Source: Candidatus Thioglobus autotrophicus (GTDB lineage: Bacteria; Pseudomonadota; Gammaproteobacteria; PS1; Pseudothioglobaceae). Taken from it: a DNA stretch of 64,000 nt. The stretch spans positions 682,001 through 746,000 of the forward strand of contig NZ_CP010552.1 in NCBI RefSeq assembly GCF_001293165.1, read 5' to 3'. Both the position numbers and the translations under genes were made by a program. Shown piece by piece: positions 12,224 through 56,485 of this stretch (position 1 is its first letter; every line of letters starts with the position of its first letter). The notes beneath the pieces were generated by a model. That model was not told the DNA's origin and searched no databases. It saw only the letters and a program-made list of their open reading frames with translations.

Positions 12224-13840
12224 ATGAATAATCAAAAATTTTTCCTTATTATTGCCATACTTCTTAGTATTTTCTTACTCAATGAGCAGTGGGATAGACA
12301 ACATGCAACTGATGCCAATGGTGACTTAATCTATCAAGCAAAAACTGAAAACACTGTAGACGCCTCTATTAGCAAAAATGCTAACGTGCCAAGTGCGATT
12401 CGCACCAACCCAACCCCTAACGTTCCAGCGACAAAAACTACTCATAATGGCGAGTTTGTAACGGTCATTACTGATTTGCTAACATTAGAAATTAGCCACA
12501 AAGGCGGTACTATTACTAACGCTTGGCTCAATGATTATCCAATTGAATTAGGCTCTATTGCCAATTTTCAACTACTAAGTGATACGCCTAATGAACTATT
12601 CCAGGCGCAAAGTGGTTTATTGCCAAGTGAGCAAATGCCAACACATCACTCTGTCTTTAACGCAGCTCAAACACACTACCAAATGCAAGGTGATACACTG
12701 GTAGTGCCATTAACATGGATTGGTGAAAACGGCGCTGTCGTCACTAAAAACTACCACTTTAGCAAAGGTAGTTATATGGTCAATATCGATTACCAAGTAA
12801 GCAATAACTCAAATAATCCGCTGGATGTTACCAGCTACACTCAATTAGTGCGCAATGCACTAGACCAGTCAAACATGATGATGCCAACCTATACCGGTGG
12901 TGCTAAATATGACGACCAAGAAGTGTATGAAAAAATTGAGTTTGATGAATTCAACGAACAACCAGAAACCACTTCTAAAGGTGGCTGGTCAGCAATGATC
13001 CAGCATTATTTCTTTGTGGCCATGATTCCTGAAGCCCAAAATACACACAATTATTCTGCCAAAGTCAACAACGGAAAATACTTACTAACGATTGTTAATT
13101 CTGCTCAAAATATTGCCCCTGGCGCAACTGCCACACTTGGAAAGAATGCTTTATATATTGGCCCTAAAGAACAAGCACATATTGATGATTTAGCGCCCGG
13201 TCTCGACAAAACCGTTGATTACGGTATTTTGTTTATTATTGCCAAGCCACTTTCAGAAGTATTGAACTGGATTTATGCCTATGTCGGGTCATGGGGTTAT
13301 GCCATCATTATTCTCACCATCTTGATCAAGCTAGCCTTCTACAAACTCAGTGAAAAATCTTACCGTTCAATGGCAGGCATGAGAAAACTCTCCCCAAGGT
13401 TGGCCAAGTTAAAAGAAACGTATGGCGACGATAAAGAGAAAATGGGTCAAAAGACCATGGAGCTATACCGCAAAGAAAAAATCAATCCAGCGGCTGGTTG
13501 TTTGCCAATCTTAGTGCAAATTCCAGTTTTCATCTCTCTTTATTGGGTGCTATTAGAAATGGTTGAATTACGCCAAACCCCTTTTTGGTACTTGCTTGAC
13601 TTGGCTGCGCCAGACCCATTCTACATTTTGCCACTCATCATGGGTGCCTCTATGTTTGTACAGCAAAAGCTAAATCCGCCGCCGCCTGACCCAATGCAAG
13701 CCAAAATTATGATGGCACTACCATTCGTCTTTACCATCTTCTTCTTGTGGTTCCCATCAGGACTGGTTCTTTACTGGGTGATTAACAATATCTTGTCAAT
13801 TGCACAACAGTGGTTTATCAATAAGCGCATTAATGGCTAA
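12224..13840 (+). CDS. yidC: membrane protein insertase YidC
   Basis: YidC (538 residues) inserts inner-membrane proteins alone or with SecYEG. Residues 5-21 form the N-terminal membrane anchor, followed by a large periplasmic P1 domain to about residue 340. The conserved insertase core comes next, with membrane segments near 352, 420, 460 and 500, the cytoplasmic loop KSYRSMAGMRKLSPRLAKLKE and NPAAGCLPILVQIPVFISLY. The 3' end overlaps the next gene by 8 bases. mnmE, which often follows yidC, is not here. Confidence 0.97.
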   Translation: MNNQKFFLIIAILLSIFLLNEQWDRQHATDANGDLIYQAKTENTVDASISKNANVPSAIRTNPTPNVPATKTTHNGEFVTVITDLLTLEISHKGGTITNAWLNDYPIELGSIANFQLLSDTPNELFQAQSGLLPSEQMPTHHSVFNAAQTHYQMQGDTLVVPLTWIGENGAVVTKNYHFSKGSYMVNIDYQVSNNSNNPLDVTSYTQLVRNALDQSNMMMPTYTGGAKYDDQEVYEKIEFDEFNEQPETTSKGGWSAMIQHYFFVAMIPEAQNTHNYSAKVNNGKYLLTIVNSAQNIAPGATATLGKNALYIGPKEQAHIDDLAPGLDKTVDYGILFIIAKPLSEVLNWIYAYVGSWGYAIIILTILIKLAFYKLSEKSYRSMAGMRKLSPRLAKLKETYGDDKEKMGQKTMELYRKEKINPAAGCLPILVQIPVFISLYWVLLEMVELRQTPFWYLLDLAAPDPFYILPLIMGASMFVQQKLNPPPPDPMQAKIMMALPFVFTIFFLWFPSGLVLYWVINNILSIAQQWFINKRING

Positions 13841-14699
13841 CGTCATCGCCTCAACGGATGACTACCAATTTTGGCGAGATGAAAAGCTTGCCAACGCTCA
13901 GACTGATATTGAAAGCTGCCTAATAGAAGTCAGTAACCCTGCTCAACTATCAACGGCTGAAAAATCACAAATCGCCTATTTATGTCGTGTTAATAATTTT
14001 GCATTATTTCACACGCCTACTCAACCAAACTACGAATCTAGCATGGTCAGCTTTAATAAGCAGTTTGGCTTAAAAGCATTTGATCAGCATTTATATGTTC
14101 AAAATCAGGGCTTGGCTCATATCACTCAAAGTGATCAAGCAGATCAAGCGGAGTTTATTCCTTACACAAGCCGTGCTATTGGCTGGCATACAGATGGCTA
14201 TTACAATGCACCTGAAGAACGCATTCGTGCGTTCTCTTTATTTTGTGTTAGGCCAGCGCAAATGGGAGGCGAAAATCAATGGATTGATCAACAAATGGCC
14301 TATTTACTCTTGAGAGAACAGAATCCAGATGTGACAAAAGCACTGACCCATGCTCAAGCTATGAGCATACCCAAACATGTGGTCAATGGCCAAACTAGGC
14401 GAAAAACTTCCATTGGGCCTATTTTTTTCACCGATGAAATGACTGGTCAACTTTATATGCGCTACACTCAAAGAAAGAAAAATATCGACTTTTATGATTC
14501 TGCTGAAATCAGGCAAGCGGTTGAAATTTTAGACCTGTTTTTAGCCAGTAGCACACCTTATCATTTCACTCACACCATGAGCGCCAATCAAGGGATTTTG
14601 TGCAACAATGTTTTGCATAAACGCTCGGCTTTTACCGACCGGCAAGATACACCCAGATTAATGCTGAGAGGGCGCTATTTTAATCGCGTACAATCTTAA
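13833..14699 (+). CDS. TauD/TfdA-type Fe(II)/2-oxoglutarate dioxygenase (copy 1)
   Basis: The double-stranded beta-helix dioxygenase signature is visible. H119 and D121 lie in GWHTDGYYNAP, the second histidine H262 lies in NNVLHKRSAF, and a 2-oxoglutarate-binding arginine lies in LMLRGRYF (R275 or R279). The family couples substrate hydroxylation to 2-oxoglutarate decarboxylation and needs O2; the substrate is unknown. I start it at the ATG at 13833 (288 residues) because the longer frame would overlap yidC by 41 bases. It shares WHTDGYYN, GGENQ and AYLLLRE with the copy at 51108, so the two are paralogues. It is probably co-transcribed with yidC, and ampD follows two bases later. Confidence 0.85.
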   Translation: MANVIASTDDYQFWRDEKLANAQTDIESCLIEVSNPAQLSTAEKSQIAYLCRVNNFALFHTPTQPNYESSMVSFNKQFGLKAFDQHLYVQNQGLAHITQSDQADQAEFIPYTSRAIGWHTDGYYNAPEERIRAFSLFCVRPAQMGGENQWIDQQMAYLLLREQNPDVTKALTHAQAMSIPKHVVNGQTRRKTSIGPIFFTDEMTGQLYMRYTQRKKNIDFYDSAEIRQAVEILDLFLASSTPYHFTHTMSANQGILCNNVLHKRSAFTDRQDTPRLMLRGRYFNRVQS

Positions 14700-47274: not shown

Positions 47275-47892
47275 TCAAATAAGGCGCAATTTTTCATCCA
47301 AACATTGGCTAGTATTGCACGCTTGCACAATCAGCTCTTGATGATACTGGCGCCTAATCAATCTTTGTAATTGCGCCAGCTCTTCATCACTCATCAAACT
47401 CGGGTGCCTGGTAATACGCAATTGCTGATCAACACCCGACTCTAATAACAGCTCCAAAGATTGCCAAGCCCTCTGCGCTGAGTGTGGCGTTTGTGTTACA
47501 AGGTCATAATGCAAAGGCAGGTGCTTGATATCAAAACCCACCCAATCAACCAACGGCAAGCAACGCCTAAGGCGTTGTGGGTAAGCGCCTCCTGTATGTA
47601 GGCCCACCTTAAACCCTAATTCCTTAACTTGCGTTATCGCCTGCAATAAGTCGCTTTGCAAGCAAGGCTCTCCACCACTAAATACAACCGCATCCAGTAG
47701 CCCTTGCCTTGCCTTGATAAATTTAAGAATATCATCCCAGTCAAATGCTGTGGGTTTGTTGGCAGCAATTAAATCATGATTATGGCAATATCCACATCGC
47801 CAAGGGCAGCCCTGTGTAAACACAACACAAGACAAATTATCTGGATAATCAATCGTTGTTAACGGCTCAAAGCCACCAACATGGATAGCCAT
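47275..47892 (-). CDS. nrdG: anaerobic ribonucleotide reductase activating protein
   Basis: NrdG is a radical SAM enzyme that installs the glycyl radical on NrdD. From the ATG at 47892 it has 205 residues, with the cluster motif C29, C33, C36 in GCPWRCGYCHNHD and the SAM-binding segment FSGGEPCLQSDL. The longer frame from 47934 would overlap the preceding small gene, so I reject it. It starts one base after the stop of the 52-residue NrdD tail ORF, and the three genes form an operon. Confidence 0.93.
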   Translation of the reverse strand: MAIHVGGFEPLTTIDYPDNLSCVVFTQGCPWRCGYCHNHDLIAANKPTAFDWDDILKFIKARQGLLDAVVFSGGEPCLQSDLLQAITQVKELGFKVGLHTGGAYPQRLRRCLPLVDWVGFDIKHLPLHYDLVTQTPHSAQRAWQSLELLLESGVDQQLRITRHPSLMSDEELAQLQRLIRRQYHQELIVQACNTSQCLDEKLRLI

Positions 47893-47893
47893 A

Positions 47894-48052
47894 CTATCTG
47901 TCTGCCGACTCTTTAAAGTTGACGCGCTCCGCATGCTCAGATTGCTTGCCCGGGTTAAAACTAGTCACCGGCCGGTGATAGCCCATAACCCGCGTCCACA
48001 CTTCGCACACTTGTCTTTCACTATTGGTTAACAACACTTCTTGCTCTTTCAT
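47894..48052 (-). CDS. separate glycyl-radical C-terminal fragment of anaerobic ribonucleotide reductase
   Basis: This 52-residue ORF contains CEVWTRVMGYHRPVTSFNPG followed by KQSEHAERVNF. The RVMGY pattern matches the glycyl-radical region that ends class III NrdD proteins (RVxGY, then FNxGK); G24 would be the radical site. The ORF starts inside the last codons of nrdD in a different frame, overlaps it by 32 bases, and has the strong ribosome binding site AAGGAG six bases before its ATG. It therefore looks like a true split subunit rather than a sequencing error, though an error or a single ancestral frameshift is possible. I believe similar short ORFs occur beside other proteobacterial nrdD genes but cannot verify it. 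Confidence 0.8.
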   Translation of the reverse strand: MKEQEVLLTNSERQVCEVWTRVMGYHRPVTSFNPGKQSEHAERVNFKESADR

Positions 48053-50072
48053 GGTTTTCTCCTTGGTTTTTTAATTTTTTATTGGCCAATAGTGTTTCAT
48101 CACACTTTGGGCAGTATTCGTGTTCACCGCTCAGGTAGCCGTGTTTAGGGCAAATCGAAAAAGTTGGGGTAATGGTAATATAAGGAAGTCGAAAATTCAT
48201 TAATGAGCGCTTCACCATTTTCATGCAGGCTTCGCCACTACTAATTCTTTCACCCATATATAAGTGCAGCACGGTACCACCGGTATATTTTCCCTGCAGT
48301 TCGTCTTGTTTTTCTAATGCCTCAAAAGGGTCTGAGGTATAGCCAACTGGCAGTTGGGATGAGTTAGTGTAATAAGGCTTATCGGCCTCACCCGCCTGTA
48401 GAATATCCGGGTAACGCTTCTGATCTTCTTTGGCAAAACGGTATGTTGTACCTTCTGCTGGTGTCGCTTCTAAGTTAAACATATGTCCTGTTTGCTCTTG
48501 AAACTCAACCATACGCATACGAATATGGTCTAAAAATTCAACAGCCATTGGATAGCCTCCCGCAGAAGTAATATCCTCTTGGTCGTTGCTAAAATTACGG
48601 ATCATCTCATTAATACCATTAACGCCAATGGTTGAGAAATGATTTCTTAATGTTCCTAGATATCTTTTGGTATAAGGAAATAAGCCGTTATCCATCAATT
48701 TCTGCACCACTTTTCGTTTAACTTCCAAAGAGTCCTTGGCCATAAGCAACAATTTATCCAGCTGCTCATATAAGCCTTTTGTATTATTCTTATAAAGATA
48801 GCCCAAGCGTGCGCAATTAATGGTCACCACACCCAAAGATCCGGTTTGTTCTGCTGATCCAAATAGGCCGTTACCACGCTTTAACAACTCATTCAAATCA
48901 AGTTGCAAGCGACAACACATCGACCTCACCATATTAGGCTTGAGGTCAGAATTTAAAAAATTCTGGAAATAAGGCAGGCCATATTTAGCGGTCATATCAA
49001 ATAAACGCTTGGCATTTTCACTTTCCCAAGGGAAATCCGGAGTCATGTTATAAGTAGGTATTGGAAAGGTAAATACGCGACCTTTAGCATCGCCTTCCGT
49101 CATCACCTCAATATAAGCTTGGTTAATCATATCCATTTCTACTTGCAGATCACCATAAGTAAATGGCATTTCTTCGTCGCCCATCATCGGCACTTGGTCG
49201 CGCAGGTCCTCAGGACAAACCCAATCAAAGGTCAGGTTAGTAAAAGGCGTTTGCGTCCCCCAGCGAGAGGGGACATTTAGATTATAAATCAACTCCTGAA
49301 TACTCTGCTTAACCTCGTTATATCCTAAATCATCCAAACGAATATACGGCGCCAAATACGTATCAAACGAGCTAAATGCTTGAGCACCAGCCCATTCGTT
49401 TTGTAGCGTACCCAAAAAGTTAACCATTTGTCCTACCGCACTACTTAAATGCTTTGGCGGGCCCGCCTCAATACGCCCTTCAACCCCATTCAACCCTTCT
49501 CTTAATAAAGTTCGCAACGACCAACCCGCACAATAACCTGCCAGCATATCCAGGTCATGGATATGCAAATCCCCTTGACGATGTGCATGACCAACTTCAG
49601 GCGCATAAACATGGCTTAACCAGTAATTTGCGATAACCTTGCCTGATACATTCAATATTAACCCGCCCAGAGAATACCCCTGATTGGCATTGGCATTAAC
49701 ACGCCAATCTGCTCTATCTAAATACTCATTGATGGATGATGCAACATCGACCAAGGTCTTTGTATCATCTCTAAGGGTTTTATGTTGTTGGCGATAAGCG
49801 ATGTAAATTCTAGCTGTCTTAATAAAATTTGAAGCGATTAACGCTTGCTCTACAATATCTTGAATGCGCTCAATACTTGGATTGTTATTGTTCTGGTGAT
49901 CTAAAACCTGTAGCACCTGCTCGGTTAATAATTCTGCTTGAGCGTCACCCAACTCTTCACTAACCTGGCCCGATCTAACAATGGCTAAATAAATTTTCCT
50001 GGCATCAAATAAAGCGCTGCTGCCGTTTCTTTTGATAACGCCCTGTGGCATATTGGTATGCGTTGTGTCCAT
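48021..50072 (-). CDS. nrdD: anaerobic ribonucleoside-triphosphate reductase, large part
   Basis: Class III reductase that makes dNTPs without oxygen. The ATG at 50072, preceded by GGGGAG, gives 683 residues. The N-terminal ATP-cone (VIKRNGSSALFDARKIYLAIV) is followed by the catalytic barrel (HIHDLDMLAGYCAGWSLRTLL, NLTFDWVCPEDL, PYFQNFLNSDLKPN) and the zinc motif CPKHGYLSGEHEYCPKC near the end. The protein stops about 30 residues later without the glycyl-radical segment, which is encoded by the next ORF. Its promoter carries an FNR-type box and two NrdR boxes. Confidence 0.94.
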   Translation of the reverse strand: MDTTHTNMPQGVIKRNGSSALFDARKIYLAIVRSGQVSEELGDAQAELLTEQVLQVLDHQNNNNPSIERIQDIVEQALIASNFIKTARIYIAYRQQHKTLRDDTKTLVDVASSINEYLDRADWRVNANANQGYSLGGLILNVSGKVIANYWLSHVYAPEVGHAHRQGDLHIHDLDMLAGYCAGWSLRTLLREGLNGVEGRIEAGPPKHLSSAVGQMVNFLGTLQNEWAGAQAFSSFDTYLAPYIRLDDLGYNEVKQSIQELIYNLNVPSRWGTQTPFTNLTFDWVCPEDLRDQVPMMGDEEMPFTYGDLQVEMDMINQAYIEVMTEGDAKGRVFTFPIPTYNMTPDFPWESENAKRLFDMTAKYGLPYFQNFLNSDLKPNMVRSMCCRLQLDLNELLKRGNGLFGSAEQTGSLGVVTINCARLGYLYKNNTKGLYEQLDKLLLMAKDSLEVKRKVVQKLMDNGLFPYTKRYLGTLRNHFSTIGVNGINEMIRNFSNDQEDITSAGGYPMAVEFLDHIRMRMVEFQEQTGHMFNLEATPAEGTTYRFAKEDQKRYPDILQAGEADKPYYTNSSQLPVGYTSDPFEALEKQDELQGKYTGGTVLHLYMGERISSGEACMKMVKRSLMNFRLPYITITPTFSICPKHGYLSGEHEYCPKCDETLLANKKLKNQGENHERARSVVNQ

Positions 50073-50118
50073 ATTACTCCCCCGATTCATATTAATAAAA
50101 AACTATTTTTTAAGATAT

Positions 50119-50169: not shown

Positions 50170-50183
50170 TTGACGCAAATCAA
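50170..50183 (-). promoter_or_regulatory. FNR-type box of the nrdD promoter
   Basis: TTGACGCAAATCAA matches the FNR/ANR consensus TTGAT-N4-ATCAA with one substitution. Its centre is about 30 bases from the minus-strand TATAAT at 50146-50141, placing it near -41.5 to -42.5, a class II activating position. Confidence 0.75.
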
Positions 50184-50206: not shown

Positions 50207-50248
50207 TTGATTTTGGTCAATCAAAATCTAGCCACTTCGTCCTATAAT
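50207..50248 (+). promoter_or_regulatory. FNR-type box and -10 element of the ubiT promoter
   Basis: TTGATTTTGGTCAA (50207-50220) is an FNR-type box, and a perfect TATAAT lies at 50243-50248. The predicted start near 50255 puts the box centre at about -41.5. The identical 14 bases occur before the TauD-like gene at 51042. The longest reading frame for ubiT would begin inside this box, so the ATG at 50279 is the real start. Confidence 0.78.
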
Positions 50249-50278: not shown

Positions 50279-50761
50279 ATGAGCTTTATTCGTCCGCCTA
50301 TTTTTTTACCTATAGCAACGCTCACGCAAGTCAGCAAAACGATCAATAACAAAATAATCGTCAGCCTGTTTAACCAAATATTTTCACAAGCAATTAAAAC
50401 AGGAGATTTAGATTTCTTAGAAGGTCGTTGGGTTCTAATTGAGATTCTAGACATGGGGCTAACATTCAATCTAGGGTTTAATAATCAGCGACTGATACAA
50501 GCTCAACAAAACCAAGTGTTTGATTTAACTATTAGCGCCCGTAGTTGTGACTTCCTCGACCTTATGAGTAAAAATAAAGATCCAGACACCTTGTTTTTTC
50601 AACGAAAAATCAATATGCAAGGTTCAACTGAACTGGGGCTTTATGTAAAAAACTTTCTCGATGCTTTTGATGTTGAGGTACATTGGGCTAGCGCTGGCGT
50701 CGACAAAATACTGCAAAACACTTATCCAATACTCAGCAAACTTTTATGCCGTAAATCTTAA
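50279..50761 (+). CDS. ubiT: UbiT-like SCP2 protein for O2-independent ubiquinone synthesis
   Basis: UbiT is the lipid-binding SCP2-domain factor of the anaerobic ubiquinone pathway with UbiU and UbiV. From the ATG at 50279 it has 160 residues: an N-terminal hydrophobic helix (FIRPPIFLPIATL), then the SCP2 core (LDFLEGRWVLIEILDMGLTFNLGFNNQRL, DLTISARSCDFLDLMSKNKDPDTLFFQRKINMQGSTELGLYVKN). The presence of ubiU and ubiV 1.3 kb away and a shared FNR-type promoter support the call. Other SCP2 proteins such as UbiJ are less likely here. Confidence 0.88.
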   Translation: MSFIRPPIFLPIATLTQVSKTINNKIIVSLFNQIFSQAIKTGDLDFLEGRWVLIEILDMGLTFNLGFNNQRLIQAQQNQVFDLTISARSCDFLDLMSKNKDPDTLFFQRKINMQGSTELGLYVKNFLDAFDVEVHWASAGVDKILQNTYPILSKLLCRKS

Positions 50762-50776
50762 GTATCACTCTCGAGC

Positions 50777-51040
50777 ATGAAGCCGAACACCGTCGATGCA
50801 ATGCACGACTTAATCAAAGAGATACAAAAGACTCTGCCTATGGATAAGATCAAAGCAGACTTCTGTTCTGACACTTGTTCGGGCTGCTCACTCAAACTCA
50901 TCACCTTTCTATCGACTGAAATTGAACATTGGCAATTTCAGCTCAACCAAGGCATTATTCCCAATTTTTCTGATTTAAATAAATTGGCAAAAATGGCCAA
51001 AAAAATTCAAGCAGTATTATTAAAAAATCACCTTATTTAG
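50777..51040 (+). CDS. small protein with a CX3CX2C motif (87 aa), unknown function
   Basis: The protein has C30, C34 and C37 in FCSDTCSGCSLKL, the cysteine spacing used by radical SAM enzymes for a [4Fe-4S] cluster, but at 87 residues it is too small for a radical SAM barrel. The rest is helical, with basic C-terminal sequence KLAKMAKKIQAVLLKNHL. It starts 15 bases after ubiT, so it should be expressed with it under FNR. It may bind an Fe-S cluster or zinc and assist the anaerobic hydroxylation system; this is inference. I do not recognise a named family. Confidence 0.75.
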   Translation: MKPNTVDAMHDLIKEIQKTLPMDKIKADFCSDTCSGCSLKLITFLSTEIEHWQFQLNQGIIPNFSDLNKLAKMAKKIQAVLLKNHLI

Positions 51041-51041
51041 C

Positions 51042-51083
51042 TTGATTTTGGTCAATGACATTGGCTGTCGACCCGATTACACT
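51042..51083 (+). promoter_or_regulatory. FNR-type box and promoter of the TauD-like gene
   Basis: TTGATTTTGGTCAA (51042-51055) is followed by a -35-like aTGACA (51055-51060) and TACACT (51078-51083) after 17 bases. The predicted start near 51090 places the box centre at about -41.5. The spacer TTGGCTGtCGACCC is nearly the same as in the sqr promoter. The box starts two bases after the previous stop codon. Confidence 0.75.
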
Positions 51084-51107
51084 GACATTTTTTTCACAAT
51101 AAACGCC

Positions 51108-52025
51108 ATGCAGCTTGCCAAACAGACTCTTTCAGTAACTTCTCCTTTTGCCCTAGACAATGAAGATCTTTACCAACGCTGGAGAGATAAAAAATCCTTT
51201 GCTTATCCCAATAGAATCTCTGAGCTATTTATCGAGGTTAAAAACCCAAAACAGCTTAGTAAGGGCGAACATGCTGCCATTTTGGCGTTAACTCAAAAAA
51301 CCAATATGGCGATCTATATTGGCAATACTGGCAACAACCCTTCTGTCGAAATTCCCATCGCGATAGCCAACCAATTTGGCCTCAAACAAATCAACAAAAA
51401 TTGGCTGGCTGACGATACAGGTCTCACCTCTCTCAAAGTAGCCAATGATGATATTAGAAAAAAATACATTCCTTATACCAACAAACTCATTCATTGGCAT
51501 ACAGATGGCTATTACAACACCCCTGATCAACAAATTCATGCGTTGAACTTACACGTTGTTCAGCAAGCTGCCAGCGGCGGTGAAAATCAGCTGATGGATC
51601 ATGAAATTGCTTATTTATTATTACGCGAAAAAAATCCTGATTATATTCGTGCATTAATGGCAAACGATGTTATGACCATTCCTGCAGGCACCAATGCAGA
51701 TGGTAGTGCCAGACCTGATCGCTCCGGACCTGTATTTAGTATCAGTAGTCGGGGAAATTTACACATGCGCTACACGGCAAGAACTAAAAATATACGCTGG
51801 TCTAGTACACCCCTTGTTAAAGAGGCGCTTGAATTTCTGCAACAAATTCTCAATCGTCAACACTCGTCCTATGTCTTTAAAGGCTTGCTAGAGCCGGGCA
51901 TGGGTTTAATCAGTAACAATGTATTACACGATAGGGCGGCCTTTACAGAAGACGCCCAACACCAGCGCCATTACTATCGGGCACGATATTTTGACCGCCT
52001 AGCAAACACCGACTTTAAAGGGTAG
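51108..52025 (+). CDS. TauD/TfdA-type Fe(II)/2-oxoglutarate dioxygenase (copy 2)
   Basis: A 305-residue protein from the ATG at 51108. The longer frame from 51042 begins in the FNR box, upstream of the inferred transcription start. Iron ligands H131 and D133 lie in HWHTDGYYN, the distal H274 lies in NNVLHDRAAF, and arginines in YYRARYF can bind 2-oxoglutarate, so the active site looks complete. It is a paralogue of the gene at 13833. The family normally needs O2, which is surprising beside ubiT, ubiU, ubiV and nrdDG under an anaerobic promoter. The substrate is unknown. It converges with ubiV with 3 bases between them. Confidence 0.85.
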   Translation: MQLAKQTLSVTSPFALDNEDLYQRWRDKKSFAYPNRISELFIEVKNPKQLSKGEHAAILALTQKTNMAIYIGNTGNNPSVEIPIAIANQFGLKQINKNWLADDTGLTSLKVANDDIRKKYIPYTNKLIHWHTDGYYNTPDQQIHALNLHVVQQAASGGENQLMDHEIAYLLLREKNPDYIRALMANDVMTIPAGTNADGSARPDRSGPVFSISSRGNLHMRYTARTKNIRWSSTPLVKEALEFLQQILNRQHSSYVFKGLLEPGMGLISNNVLHDRAAFTEDAQHQRHYYRARYFDRLANTDFKG

Positions 52026-52028
52026 CTG

Positions 52029-52943
52029 CTAACCTCTTAAAATTGGTTGTTGCAACTCAACACCACTCATGCCCGGTTTATCAAACCAATAGCCGTCACA
52101 CTGCTGATATGCACTAAAAGGCTGTAGCAACCCTAATGCCTGATGAATGCTAATATTTTGGGCAATTCTATCCTTAAAAATTTGGATAATTTCTGCCGTA
52201 TTGGTAAACTGAGGGCTAATTCTTACAACATCTACACCCATATCCTGCATTTGATCCATCTGGGAAATAAGATTAAAAGTATTGGCTGACAACGTCTGGA
52301 TACCGTTCATCATCAGAAAAGACTGCTGCTCTTGAGTGGTCAATAATAGCCCGTCTTCATGCATCAAACACTTATACTGACAATCATCCTTATCAAGATC
52401 ATAAGCTCTAGCGGTGAAGCACCGCGCCGAAAATGCCAACGGCATTTGACCAAAAACAAACACCTCAGTTTGCAACTCTGGGCTTATCCCTGCCATCATT
52501 TGTTGCAAAGCCTCTTGAGATAACTCAAGCGGAAAGCACCAACGCACAAGGCCTTTTTTTGCCAACAGATTAAGACTTGGTGCATTATATAAATTAACAC
52601 TGGGCCCCGTCACAAATGGCATATTTTGTTTACTTCTTAAACCAATAGCGGCATAGTCATTCGCCTCTATCAAATAATCTTCTTGCTGGCAAATACGCCC
52701 CAGTTGCTTGAGCTCAGAGTCAGCCTCTAATAAAGTGAGTGTTGAAAATACTACCTCTTTACCTGCATCACGCAATTGGTTAGCAATCATCAACCAGTCA
52801 TTTATTTTAAGTTGTCTACGCTTAGAACAAACCACCTCTCCCAAATAAACAATATCAACCGGGGTTTTGGCAATCGCCTTGTAAAAATCAAAAACTTTTT
52901 GTCTGTCCCAATAATAATAAATAGGTCCTAATGAAATCTTCAT
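52029..52943 (-). CDS. ubiV: O2-independent ubiquinone hydroxylation protein UbiV
   Basis: UbiV, a U32-type protein with a [4Fe-4S] cluster, works with UbiU to hydroxylate the ubiquinone precursor without O2. From the ATG at 52943 (ATGA overlap with ubiU) it has 304 residues. C39, C175, C188 and C192 keep the E. coli pattern as I recall it (C39, then Cys-X12-Cys-X3-Cys), seen in GEVVCSKRR and ARCFTARAYDLDKDDCQYKC. It starts MKISLGPIYYYWDR, typical of the family. Confidence 0.93.
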   Translation of the reverse strand: MKISLGPIYYYWDRQKVFDFYKAIAKTPVDIVYLGEVVCSKRRQLKINDWLMIANQLRDAGKEVVFSTLTLLEADSELKQLGRICQQEDYLIEANDYAAIGLRSKQNMPFVTGPSVNLYNAPSLNLLAKKGLVRWCFPLELSQEALQQMMAGISPELQTEVFVFGQMPLAFSARCFTARAYDLDKDDCQYKCLMHEDGLLLTTQEQQSFLMMNGIQTLSANTFNLISQMDQMQDMGVDVVRISPQFTNTAEIIQIFKDRIAQNISIHQALGLLQPFSAYQQCDGYWFDKPGMSGVELQQPILRG

Positions 52944-53929
52944 TGCCAACTCCGGTGATAGGCGCCCAACGTGGTTTGAAAGCCTTCAGATATGTCGCTA
53001 AGCGCCTGATTCCATTCAGATTTAGTCTGATAGTTGCCTGTTTCTAGCTGCTGAATTGCCGCCGACCATGTCTGGGCGACAGTTTTAATGTAAGCACTAG
53101 ATCGCTGCCGACCCTCAATCTTAATGGCTTTAACGCCAATCTCTTGCAGCGTGGGTAGAATCTCCAACGTATTTAAACTAGTTGGCTCTTCAAGTGCATA
53201 ATAAGTGTTGTTCATAGATTCAAATCGACCTTTACACAAAGTCGGGTAACCTGCAGGCTCGTGCTTTTCATAGGCATCTATCAACACACCGCCCAGTCTG
53301 GTTTCTAGCTTAATATCGTTCTCAATATATTCAACATGGGAGGCTGGCGAACAAGCCCCATAAGTATTAGGCGAGCGCCCAGTTGCATAAGAAGAAAGAA
53401 TGCACCGGCCCTCTACCATGACACACAAAGAGCCAAATCCAAAGACTTCTATGTCTACAGGCGAAGAATCAATAACTTTCTTGACTTGCGCCACAGATAA
53501 AACCCGAGGCAGCACAGCACGCTTAATATTAAAATTTTGATAATAAAAATCAAGCGCCTCATAGCTAGTAGCCGAACCCTGTACTGATAAATGTAGGTTT
53601 AAATCTGGATATACTCGAGCGGCATATTCCATCAGTCCAATATCGGCCAAAATAATAGCATCCGCCCCTATTCTAGCAGCACGATCAATGGCGTCTATCC
53701 AGCGTTGCCAAATATTTGGCTGTGGATAGGTATTAATTGCCACGTATACCTTTTTACCGCGTGCATGAGCATAATCAACCCCCTGTGCAGCACGCTGTTC
53801 ATTAAAGTTGAGGCCCGCAAAATGACGAGCATTGGTATCATCTGCAAAGCCAATATAAACCGTATCGGCGCCTTGATCAATGGCCACTTTAAGTGCCGGT
53901 AAATTACCCGCAGGACAAACTAATTCCAT
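52940..53929 (-). CDS. ubiU: O2-independent ubiquinone hydroxylation protein UbiU
   Basis: UbiU is the U32-family partner of UbiV. The 329-residue protein begins MELVCPAGNLPALKVAIDQGADTVYIGF. Cluster cysteines fall at C169, C176, C193 and C232 (SLCVMVEGRCILSS, YGACSPASH, TLCKGRFE), the same numbers I recall for the E. coli cluster ligands. It overlaps yhcC by 10 bases and ubiV by 4, so the three genes form a tight operon. Confidence 0.94.
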   Translation of the reverse strand: MELVCPAGNLPALKVAIDQGADTVYIGFADDTNARHFAGLNFNEQRAAQGVDYAHARGKKVYVAINTYPQPNIWQRWIDAIDRAARIGADAIILADIGLMEYAARVYPDLNLHLSVQGSATSYEALDFYYQNFNIKRAVLPRVLSVAQVKKVIDSSPVDIEVFGFGSLCVMVEGRCILSSYATGRSPNTYGACSPASHVEYIENDIKLETRLGGVLIDAYEKHEPAGYPTLCKGRFESMNNTYYALEEPTSLNTLEILPTLQEIGVKAIKIEGRQRSSAYIKTVAQTWSAAIQQLETGNYQTKSEWNQALSDISEGFQTTLGAYHRSWQ

Positions 53930-54831
53930 CTAATTTTCTCCTGATTTTGTGCCTTAAGTTCTGCCTCAATAGCATTTAAAACCGCCCACTTTTTATGACA
54001 CCATGCGGGTGCCAACAATTGTTGCTTATTGGCTGTGCCCGTGAGTCGGTGATACACGATCGACTTTGGCGCCATGCGTATCAATGCCACAACGGCTTTT
54101 ACATAGTACGCCATTGTCATAGGCTGATACTCGCCTCTGCGCCATTCATTGGCAAGCTGGGTACCTTTAACCACATGTAGTGGATGGAATTTTAGCCCAT
54201 CAACTCCCAATGCCAACACACGCTCTAGTGTGGTTTTAAAATGACTTTCATCTTCACCAGGCAATCCAAGAATTAGATGCGTACAAACTCGAATGCCTTT
54301 GGCTCGGGCTGCCAGCAAAGTTTTTTTATATGCTTCAAACCCATGGCCTCGATTAATGCGCGCCAAGGTTTCATCAAAGGCTGATTGCAGGCCTAGCTCA
54401 AGCCAAATGTCATAGCCCTGATTTTGATAATCAACCAATAAATCAATCACTTCATCGGAGACGCAATCAGGTCGAGTGCCAATAGACAAGCCGATCACAT
54501 CTTGTTCAGATAGTGCTCGACCATACAGATCTCTTAAGGTTTTTAGGTCTGCAAAGGTGTTAGTATAAGCCTGAAAATACGCAATATATTTCTTAGCACC
54601 GGTACGCTTAAGCAACACTTCACGGCCATTTTGAATTTGCACTAAGATTGGATCTGGCTGTCGCCCATTCGGGCTAAAGGTTGCATTATTACAAAACGTG
54701 CAGCCGCCTATACCGATAGAGCCGTCCCGATTAGGACAACTAAGTCCCGCATCAATAGCCACCTTATGTACACGCTCTTGGTAAGTTCTTAACAAGGATT
54801 GCCCTAAAGTGTTTACATAATCAGACAGCAA
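53920..54831 (-). CDS. yhcC: YhcC-like radical SAM protein (TIGR01212 family)
   Basis: A radical SAM protein of unknown reaction. The cluster motif is the long-spaced C32-X11-C44-X2-C47 in SCPNRDGSIGIGGCTFCNN, the family hallmark, followed by YFQAYTNTFADLKTLRDLY and GTRPDCVSDEV. I start it at the TTG at 54831 (303 residues). The longest frame begins at 54879, upstream of the inferred transcription start near 54853, and relatives begin about 20-30 residues before the first cysteine. It leads the ubiU-ubiV operon, hinting at a link to anaerobic metabolism, though relatives are widespread elsewhere. Confidence 0.85.
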   Translation of the reverse strand: MLSDYVNTLGQSLLRTYQERVHKVAIDAGLSCPNRDGSIGIGGCTFCNNATFSPNGRQPDPILVQIQNGREVLLKRTGAKKYIAYFQAYTNTFADLKTLRDLYGRALSEQDVIGLSIGTRPDCVSDEVIDLLVDYQNQGYDIWLELGLQSAFDETLARINRGHGFEAYKKTLLAARAKGIRVCTHLILGLPGEDESHFKTTLERVLALGVDGLKFHPLHVVKGTQLANEWRRGEYQPMTMAYYVKAVVALIRMAPKSIVYHRLTGTANKQQLLAPAWCHKKWAVLNAIEAELKAQNQEKIRWN

Positions 54832-54859
54832 CCTAACCCTCGCAATAACTAAAGCTTGT

Positions 54860-54901
54860 ATTGTAAAAGTGAATGGCATTTGATGGATTGACGTAAATCA
54901 A
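54860..54901 (-). promoter_or_regulatory. FNR-type box and -10 element of the yhcC-ubiU-ubiV promoter
   Basis: TTGACGTAAATCAA (54888-54901) is an FNR-type box close to the one at nrdD. On the minus strand TACAAT lies at 54865-54860, and the inferred start near 54853 places the box at about -41.5. This also decides the yhcC start codon. Confidence 0.75.
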
Positions 54902-54999: not shown

Positions 55000-55515
55000 T
55001 TACTTAGCAGCTGTTTCACGTGAGTCTGCAGCAGCGTTACCTTTAGCATCTGCGTAACCTTTAGCGTATGCATCAGCTTGAGCCTTAGCAAAAGCGTCAG
55101 CTTGACCTTTAGCGTATGCATCAGCAACACCTTTAGCGTTAGCGTCAGCAACACCAGCAAACTTACCGTCTGTAGTAGCGTTAGATTTGTTAGCAGTCTT
55201 ATTCTTGTTGTTGTAATGGAAACCCCAATCAGAATCGTTGTTCATGTCATTGCTGTTAGCAAAAGGACCGAAGTTTTGAGCGCCATTGAAAGGACCCATG
55301 TTTGAACCACCGTTGAAAGGACCCATGTTCTGGCCGCCAGTAAATGGACCCATGTTAGAACCTGAGTTCATAGGACCGAAGTTAGAACCACCGTCGAAAG
55401 GACCCCAGTTTGACATGCCGTTACCGTTAGTCCAACCGTTGTTGTTGTTGTTACCAAAAAAAGCTGAAGCTGAAGTAGCTGCTACTAAAGTAGTAATTGC
55501 GATAATTTTTTTCAT
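55000..55515 (-). CDS. secreted repeat protein, sulfur-globule-protein-like
   Basis: The 171-residue protein has a signal peptide (KKIIAITTLVAATSASA, cleavage before FFGN) and an Asn/Gly-rich mature part. NWGPF, NFGPM, NMGPF, NMGPF, NMGPF and NFGPF start at residues 36, 45, 54, 63, 72 and 81, an exact 9-residue period. The C-terminal part has an exact 8-residue period of ADAxAKGx from residue 123 to about 158. Signal peptide, Asn/Gly richness and the AFFGNNNNNGW start resemble sulfur globule proteins, and sqr in the window fits. This is resemblance by eye, not homology proof. It has a strong promoter, AGGAG ribosome binding site and terminator, so high expression is likely. Confidence 0.75.
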   Translation of the reverse strand: MKKIIAITTLVAATSASAFFGNNNNNGWTNGNGMSNWGPFDGGSNFGPMNSGSNMGPFTGGQNMGPFNGGSNMGPFNGAQNFGPFANSNDMNNDSDWGFHYNNKNKTANKSNATTDGKFAGVADANAKGVADAYAKGQADAFAKAQADAYAKGYADAKGNAAADSRETAAK

Positions 55516-55924: not shown

Positions 55925-56485
55925 CTATTGATCGCTGCCAACTCGCGGCGTCGAAGCAGCGGCAGGCGACAGACCATTGTAAACACCATTCGTTAAGCGG
56001 GAACCATCACCATAACGATTCAGTTGCTCTCTAACTGCCTTTTCAATATCTTCAGACTGCGTTTGTATACGCTGATAACCCTCATTAAAGTTGACCGGCA
56101 TCTCATTCACAAAAAATGTTTTACTGCCCGAACCTTTAATCTGCTCTAGGGTTCTACTAAAATCAGTCTCTTGCAGCCAATTGCTTGGTTGAATCTGATT
56201 AGGCATAACCCTCATGGCGTTATTAGGCTGAAACTCGGGATTTTGACGATAGCTTTTAAGCGAATTTGGGCGCGCACCATAACGACTCATGTTTCTAGCG
56301 TCGTTAGCCGGAGAGTACTGCACACCTGTTGACATAGGATTCCAGTTCGAACCATTGCTCCAAGGGGTGGTGCTGGTATAACCGGTACCATTTCCAAACG
56401 GTGAAAAACTATTGGTATCGAAAAATGCAACAGCATTAAGTGAGGTGACACCAAGGATGCTCAATATAAGGCTTATCTTTCTCAT
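55925..56485 (-). CDS. secreted Asn/Ser-rich protein of unknown function (186 aa)
   Basis: A signal peptide (ILSILGVTSLNAVA, cleavage before FFDTN) precedes an Asn/Gly/Ser/Pro-rich region (FSPFGNGTGYTSTTPWSNGSNWNPM) that recalls the start of the neighbouring sulfur-globule-like protein. The C-terminal half is more ordinary and helical (FFVNEMPVNFNEGYQRIQTQSEDIEKAVREQLNRYGDG). The shared FF after the cleavage site and NGxNW motifs suggest a related envelope or globule-associated role. I do not recognise the family. It has its own terminator. Confidence 0.7.
   Translation of the reverse strand: MRKISLILSILGVTSLNAVAFFDTNSFSPFGNGTGYTSTTPWSNGSNWNPMSTGVQYSPANDARNMSRYGARPNSLKSYRQNPEFQPNNAMRVMPNQIQPSNWLQETDFSRTLEQIKGSGSKTFFVNEMPVNFNEGYQRIQTQSEDIEKAVREQLNRYGDGSRLTNGVYNGLSPAAASTPRVGSDQ

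Follow-up and report, generated by a model that had tools for sequence, protein, structure and literature searches.

Background

Among described systems, the closest to the gene considered here is dsrQ, a tauD-like gene that lies divergent from dsrA and, according to PMC7596348, received its name from Lenk et al. 2012. The same paper carries the proposal, presented as speculation, that its product releases sulfite from sulfonates (PMC7596348). A second system is the UbiTUV pathway of O2-independent ubiquinone hydroxylation. In E. coli, UbiUV depends on FNR and is already produced at 0.1% O2 (PMC10470549). The dsr-linked tauD-like gene is already known and named; for a paralog that is linked to ubiTUV and preceded by an FNR-type box, no description was found in the literature searched, which comprised papers available without subscription, and a 2024 survey of ubiTUV loci (PMC11707229) contains no mention of TauD or of a dioxygenase.

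The gene described here resembles dsrQ in that a single profile finds both dsr-linked and ubi-linked copies, a single set of residues is invariant in both, and both are present in sulfur oxidizers that use reverse Dsr (rDsr). It differs from dsrQ in lying outside the dsr cluster, within a ubiTUV locus and behind an FNR-type box, and in belonging to a separate paralog clade. A dsrQ gene is found beside dsrA, usually divergent from it; since dsrA is about 389 kb from the oxygenase gene in the source genome, the latter is classified as a paralog of DsrQ and not as DsrQ itself, an assignment made by genomic position and family membership. With the UbiTUV pathway the gene shares its locus and the type of promoter box, but the oxygenase family is dispensable where UbiUV occurs without DsrA, as only 1 of 23 such UbiU-containing genomes has it.

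The ubiTUV locus of the source genome

The window (the whole stretch of 64,000 nucleotides that was analysed) comes from a complete genome of 1.51 Mb whose closest relatives are SUP05/Candidatus Thioglobus. The locus consists of nrdG and nrdD on the minus strand, followed by ubiT, a small cysteine-containing ORF and the oxygenase gene on the plus strand, and then by ubiV, ubiU and ytqA, again on the minus strand. An nrdG2-type activating enzyme is encoded at 47275-47934 (-; TIGR02495, 195 bits) and the anaerobic ribonucleotide reductase NrdD at 48021-50090 (-; Pfam and NCBIfam matches). NCBIfam equivalogs identify ubiT (50279-50761, +, ATG start likely; NF047962, 134 bits, cut-off 46.9), ubiV (52029-52949, -; NF047965, 392 bits, cut-off 275) and ubiU (52940-53929, -; NF047963, 540 bits, cut-off 440), confirming the placement amid these genes that a preliminary description of the locus had given. 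The radical-SAM gene ytqA/mnmL (53920-54879, -; TIGR01212, 361 bits) heads the ubiUV directon. The small ORF (50777-51040, +; 87 aa), located between ubiT and the oxygenase gene, contains a CSDTCSGCS motif, is kept in 7 SUP05-type loci, and has no match in Pfam or NCBIfam. Beyond ytqA, the window encodes two Asn/Gly/Pro-rich proteins (55000-55515 and 55925-56485, both -) that look like candidate sulfur-globule envelope proteins; one of them contains GGSNMGPF-type repeats and probably a signal peptide.

The oxygenase gene itself is complete in the window and lies between ubiT and ubiV. It had been described as an ORF from 51042 to 52025; the oxygenase is real, but its likely start is the ATG at 51108, giving a protein of 305 aa (51108-52025, +). 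This start is preferred because orthologs align from their first residues there and because an FNR-type box lies upstream of the ATG. The TTG at 51042 was rejected, as it begins at the first base of that box.

The box, TTGATTTTGGTCAA (51042-51055, +), has one mismatch to TTGATNNNNATCAA and ends 52 bp before the ATG. In class II promoters, the box is centred at -41.5. A -10-like hexamer found by inspection, TACACT (51078-51083, +), would set the transcription start at about 51090, with the box centred 41.5 bp ahead of it, so that the class II spacing assigned earlier appears to be correct. A box with no more than two mismatches is found 66-72 bp ahead of the ATG in 8/8 SUP05-type orthologs; thus, the box has both the predicted activating position and conservation among orthologs. 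In the window, 16 boxes have at most one mismatch to TTGATNNNNATCAA, compared with 5.2 expected from shuffles, and four of these belong to this locus. Besides the oxygenase box, a box scan places one between nrdD and ubiT (50170-50183, +), one upstream of ubiT (50207-50220, +) and one upstream of ytqA-ubiU-ubiV (54888-54901, -). The box upstream of ubiT is identical to that of the oxygenase gene; the exact 14-mer TTGATTTTGGTCAA occurs three times in the 1.51 Mb genome, before ubiT, before the oxygenase gene and before a gene for a Crp/Fnr-family regulator.

In other lineages, the FNR-type box precedes ytqA, the first gene of a ytqA-ubiU-ubiV-TauD directon, and it is present there in 21/32 loci versus 6% of random stretches. 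At loci without ubiUV, a box precedes the tauD-like gene in 6/36 cases, only mildly above the random rate of 6%. From the boxes we infer that the oxygenase gene would be under FNR control. The source genome encodes an Fnr/FnrL-like regulator (L114), which scores 109 bits for FnrL and 82 bits for Fnr, its nearest families, where the curated cut-offs are 300 and 228, and which has a CxxC near its start.

The oxygenase

The protein belongs to the Pfam TauD/TfdA family (PF02668, 65.4 bits, gathering cut-off 27) and scores 483 bits against A1, a profile built from 47 family members. The residues H131-x-D133, H274, R287, R291 and R293 are identical in 99/99 family members from both paralog groups. 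The HxD...H iron site and the arginines for 2OG are thus kept, as the preliminary description had stated, with R287 as the C-terminal arginine, and a region WHTDGYYN is mostly invariant across the same 99 sequences. The protein is therefore probably an O2- and 2OG-dependent oxygenase.

No NCBIfam equivalog scores above its cut-off, and the best NCBIfam scores are weak ones to trimethyllysine, TmpA and butyrobetaine enzymes. An AlphaFold model made from 47 sequences (pLDDT 92) has an Fe/2OG-oxygenase fold, and the solved folds closest to it are those of TmpA (Z 22.8) and BBOX1 (Z 22.3; VIA-align), followed by lysine, asparagine and arginine oxygenases, glutarate hydroxylase and TauD (Z 17.4). 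TmpA and gamma-butyrobetaine dioxygenase (BBOX1), both Fe/2OG oxygenases, are also the best sequence matches in the PDB. However, they share only 14-18% identity with the oxygenase, and the NCBIfam scores are 37 against a cut-off of 400 and 33 against 415. Trimethylammonium substrates were consequently not adopted by analogy with these distant matches; in addition, the cage tyrosine of BBOX1 seems, from the alignment, to be replaced by R293.

In TauD, R270 lies four residues past R266. R291 of the oxygenase has the same spacing from the presumed 2OG arginine R287, which suggests that the active site would suit an anionic substrate. Beyond this arginine pair, the oxygenase shares with E. coli TauD the PF02668 family and the fold. 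It differs in its genomic setting, and hhalign found no true alignment with E. coli TauD; homology to that enzyme did not prove closer than to other subfamilies. Identification as a taurine dioxygenase was rejected, given the lack of both this alignment and an NCBIfam TauD equivalog.

Conservation beside ubiTUV and the paralog clade

When genomes were searched with the oxygenase protein alone, 80 related loci were obtained, and ubiU or ubiV is present on the retrieved stretch in 43 of them, the window included. The neighbours are arranged in several ways: ubiT-TauD facing ubiV-ubiU-ytqA in SUP05, TauD-ytqA-ubiU-ubiV facing ubiT in Acidiferrobacteraceae, ytqA-ubiU-ubiV-TauD facing ubiT in many other lineages, and TauD-ubiU-ubiV at loci L068 and L070. 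The conservation beside ubiTUV, which the preliminary description had proposed as a check, is therefore broad, and the persistence of the same neighbours in differing orders suggests that the oxygenase and ubiTUV are linked in function or in regulation. Homologs of pdxT and pdxS, identified by reading of the sequence, recur downstream of the ubi cluster at about 11-12 loci (L020, L026, L031-L039, L041, L044). In G194, a FAD hydroxylase of the UbiH/UbiM kind (L109:3824-5086, +) lies inside a ubiT-ytqA-ubiU-ubiV cluster, so that an O2-dependent ubiquinone enzyme adjoins the O2-independent set.

The surroundings of nearly all matches from a sample of Gammaproteobacteria (described below) were retrieved, and a quick, midpoint-rooted tree was made of 99 proteins. 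The window gene falls in a paralog clade (29 copies; SH-aLRT 96) that contains all 10 ubiUV-linked copies and none of the dsr-linked ones; the other 19 clade copies do not adjoin ubiUV in the retrieved stretches. At the genome level, UbiU is present in 25/27 genomes with the clade, and the clade is found in 24/41 genomes that have both DsrA and UbiU versus 2/38 that have DsrA without UbiU (p 2e-7). Outside the clade, 62 of 72 copies have dsrA or cmx6 at a distance of about 5 kb or less, those in dsr clusters usually being divergent from dsrA, and none of the 72 is near ubiUV. An independent tree of 66 proteins agrees, with most dsr-linked copies outside the clade. With the root placed at the midpoint, any direction of duplication read from the first tree is tentative. 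Three clade members (L107, L109, L121) are near what we take, from reading of the sequence, to be ccoN of a cbb3 oxidase.

The window also contains a second, very divergent TauD-like paralog that is not in the ubiTUV clade (13800-14699, +; A1 profile, 300 bits), located between yidC and an ampD-like gene. In the tree, it groups with copies from G093 and G200, relatives within the Thioglobaceae that have DsrA, do not have UbiU, and carry only this type of paralog.

Co-occurrence with reverse Dsr

The A1 profile and searches for UbiU, Coq7, Ubi-type FAD hydroxylases and DsrA were run against 232 genomes sampled evenly across the class Gammaproteobacteria. The family and DsrA occur together in 76 genomes, the family alone in 4, DsrA alone in 3 and neither in 149 (Fisher p 4e-52), the genomes in these counts being not independent, though drawn across many families. 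Thus, DsrA is present in 76/80 genomes with the family, and the family in 76/79 genomes with DsrA. A phylum-wide sample of 348 genomes gives the same picture, with 29 having both, 1 the family only, 8 DsrA only and 310 neither (p 7e-34). In three of the four family-only genomes of the class sample, the copy adjoins cmx6, a gene of dsr clusters, and is located at a contig end or close to one, a position suggesting that these cases reflect assembly gaps. The family tracks rDsr sulfur oxidation, not ubiquinone. The TauD-like family is thus an almost perfect genomic marker of rDsr sulfur oxidation in Pseudomonadota.

The source genome is itself an rDsr host, with DsrA at G000:C1:343148-344410 (485 bits). 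Both of its TauD copies, like the SUP05 copies, are far from dsr. Where a tauD-like gene is part of a dsr cluster, NCBIfam confirms dsrA and dsrB (637 and 549 bits), and the other flank of the tauD-like gene holds TusE/DsrC-like and Cas6/Cmx6-like genes. This pair lies beside the tauD-like gene in most of the dsr clusters examined, placing an RNA-processing fold amid sulfur-oxidation genes; one such Cas6/Cmx6-like protein (L105:4520-5206, -) matches TIGR02807 at 116 bits and PF09559 at 187 bits, and the same gene is present at L091-L105 and L136-L195.

Probable role of the oxygenase

The explanation judged likely is that the oxygenase is a low-oxygen isoform of the DsrQ-type enzyme, which carries out the same reaction and has been recruited to the ubiTUV locus and its FNR-type regulon. 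According to this proposal, the window gene codes for a member of the DsrQ-type family of Fe(II)/2OG oxygenases, whose tauD-like genes go along with rDsr sulfur oxidation, and its paralog clade would have been brought into the ubiTUV locus and the FNR-type control of that locus. The clade enzyme would perform the reaction of the dsr-linked copy, in which O2 and 2OG would serve to oxidize a small and probably anionic compound connected with sulfur oxidation in the cytoplasm. Like the FNR-controlled cbb3 oxidases, which use O2 at low levels, it would be produced under low oxygen but not under anoxia. There would then be no contradiction in an FNR-type box preceding the gene of an O2-dependent enzyme, because FNR switches on E. 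coli UbiUV already at 0.1% O2 and because clade copies lie near ccoN; it is on these grounds that the low-oxygen isoform appears the most likely role, with use of the clade enzyme under microoxic conditions as its predicted consequence. Against the proposal stand the distance of the SUP05 copies, and of both copies in the source genome, from dsr, and the 19 clade copies that do not adjoin ubiUV in the retrieved stretches. That the note of an O2-dependent enzyme for trace oxygen in the preliminary description is still the best reading does not extend to the role around ubiquinone hydroxylation that it implied, which is unsupported: the family co-occurs with DsrA and not with UbiU, and hydroxylase sets are usually full (see below). 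As for the reaction itself, oxygenolytic cleavage of a sulfonate to sulfite is one candidate, possible at about one chance in four. A separate clade that tracks anaerobic ubiquinone genes predicts a specific low-oxygen role in SUP05, which is dominant in oxygen minimum zones, and the paralog pair offers a direct test, in which the substrate would come from one copy and the O2-dependent step at trace oxygen from the other.

The clade might instead act on a new substrate, different from that of dsr-linked DsrQ and suited to anaerobic or microoxic sulfur oxidation. It is distinct and has its own genomic setting, it shows a few characteristic residues around the metal motif and within the core (I128, Q142, L146, L267), and 14 genomes carry a dsr-linked copy in addition to that of the clade. 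However, these differences are conservative, WHTDGYYN, R221, R225, N271, R276, R287, R291 and R293 are common to clade and dsr-linked copies, and the clade copy is the only one in 10 genomes. Identical catalytic residues (99/99) together with conservative clade differences argue that the reaction is most likely, though not necessarily, the same, and a new substrate is considered unlikely.

Less likely again would be a trace-oxygen oxygenase that links rDsr sulfur oxidation to quinone supply, for example through modification of a sulfur carrier or quinone that is needed only while ubiquinone comes from UbiUV; if true, an anaerobic pathway would then include a new step that requires O2.

A part in ubiquinone biosynthesis proper, in which the enzyme would hydroxylate or otherwise modify a ubiquinone intermediate, or prephenate, beside UbiTUV at trace oxygen, would account for its repeated placement in ubiTUV clusters of several gene orders and for the tracking of UbiU by the clade among DsrA-containing genomes. 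The source genome also has only two known O2-dependent ubiquinone hydroxylases, UbiM (546 bits, cut-off 420) and a second enzyme of the UbiH/UbiI type, and Coq7 was not found in it. Yet UbiM is a type that elsewhere acts on three positions, as the Neisseria enzyme can (PMC5069965). Counts of FMO-type hydroxylases and Coq7 in the 232 genomes show that family genomes are not short of these enzymes, since the usual three are present in 29/39 genomes with the family and UbiU and in 34/41 with the family and without UbiU; the oxygenase was consequently rejected as a missing ubiquinone hydroxylase. The family neither follows the ubiquinone pathway nor replaces a missing member of it, 22 of the 23 UbiU genomes without DsrA do without it, and its dsr-linked relatives have all the same catalytic residues. 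In four genomes that carry both the family and UbiU, no known O2-dependent hydroxylase is present; they fit a microoxic or anaerobic life, yet leave this role a small chance, and overall it is regarded as very unlikely. Across the 232 genomes, eight with UbiU yield no match to a known O2-dependent ubiquinone hydroxylase at the applied thresholds (G084, G087, G099 and G205; also G018, G060, G117 and G178).

A role in oxygen sensing or scavenging, by which the protein would shield UbiU/UbiV, NrdD or Dsr proteins that are sensitive to O2, would be in keeping with a position among genes for O2-sensitive enzymes (nrdDG, ubiUV) and with their FNR-type boxes. Such a function is still less probable, given that the substrate-site and 2OG residues are fully conserved, as in a specific oxygenase, that genomes with ubiUV and without DsrA manage without the family, and that dsr-linked copies are located elsewhere.

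The weakest alternative, a dioxygenase that provides nutritional sulfur from taurine or sulfonates and has no connection with rDsr flux, draws on the Pfam TauD family and on published TauD annotations, including the taurine metabolism proposed for the Solemya velum symbiont with its two homologs (PMC4287430), but it can hardly be reconciled with the near-perfect co-occurrence with DsrA, which is not expected for nutrition, or with the weak NCBIfam scores, the missing equivalog and the failed profile alignment to E. coli TauD. Counts of tauD in metagenomes of sulfur oxidizers should not be equated with taurine use. Further Fe/2OG genes lie near some dsr clusters, encoding a PiuC/YbiX-type PKHD protein and a 2OG-FeII_Oxy_3 protein (L105:1745-2422, + and L103:2749-3348, -), and several Fe/2OG enzymes may serve rDsr organisms.
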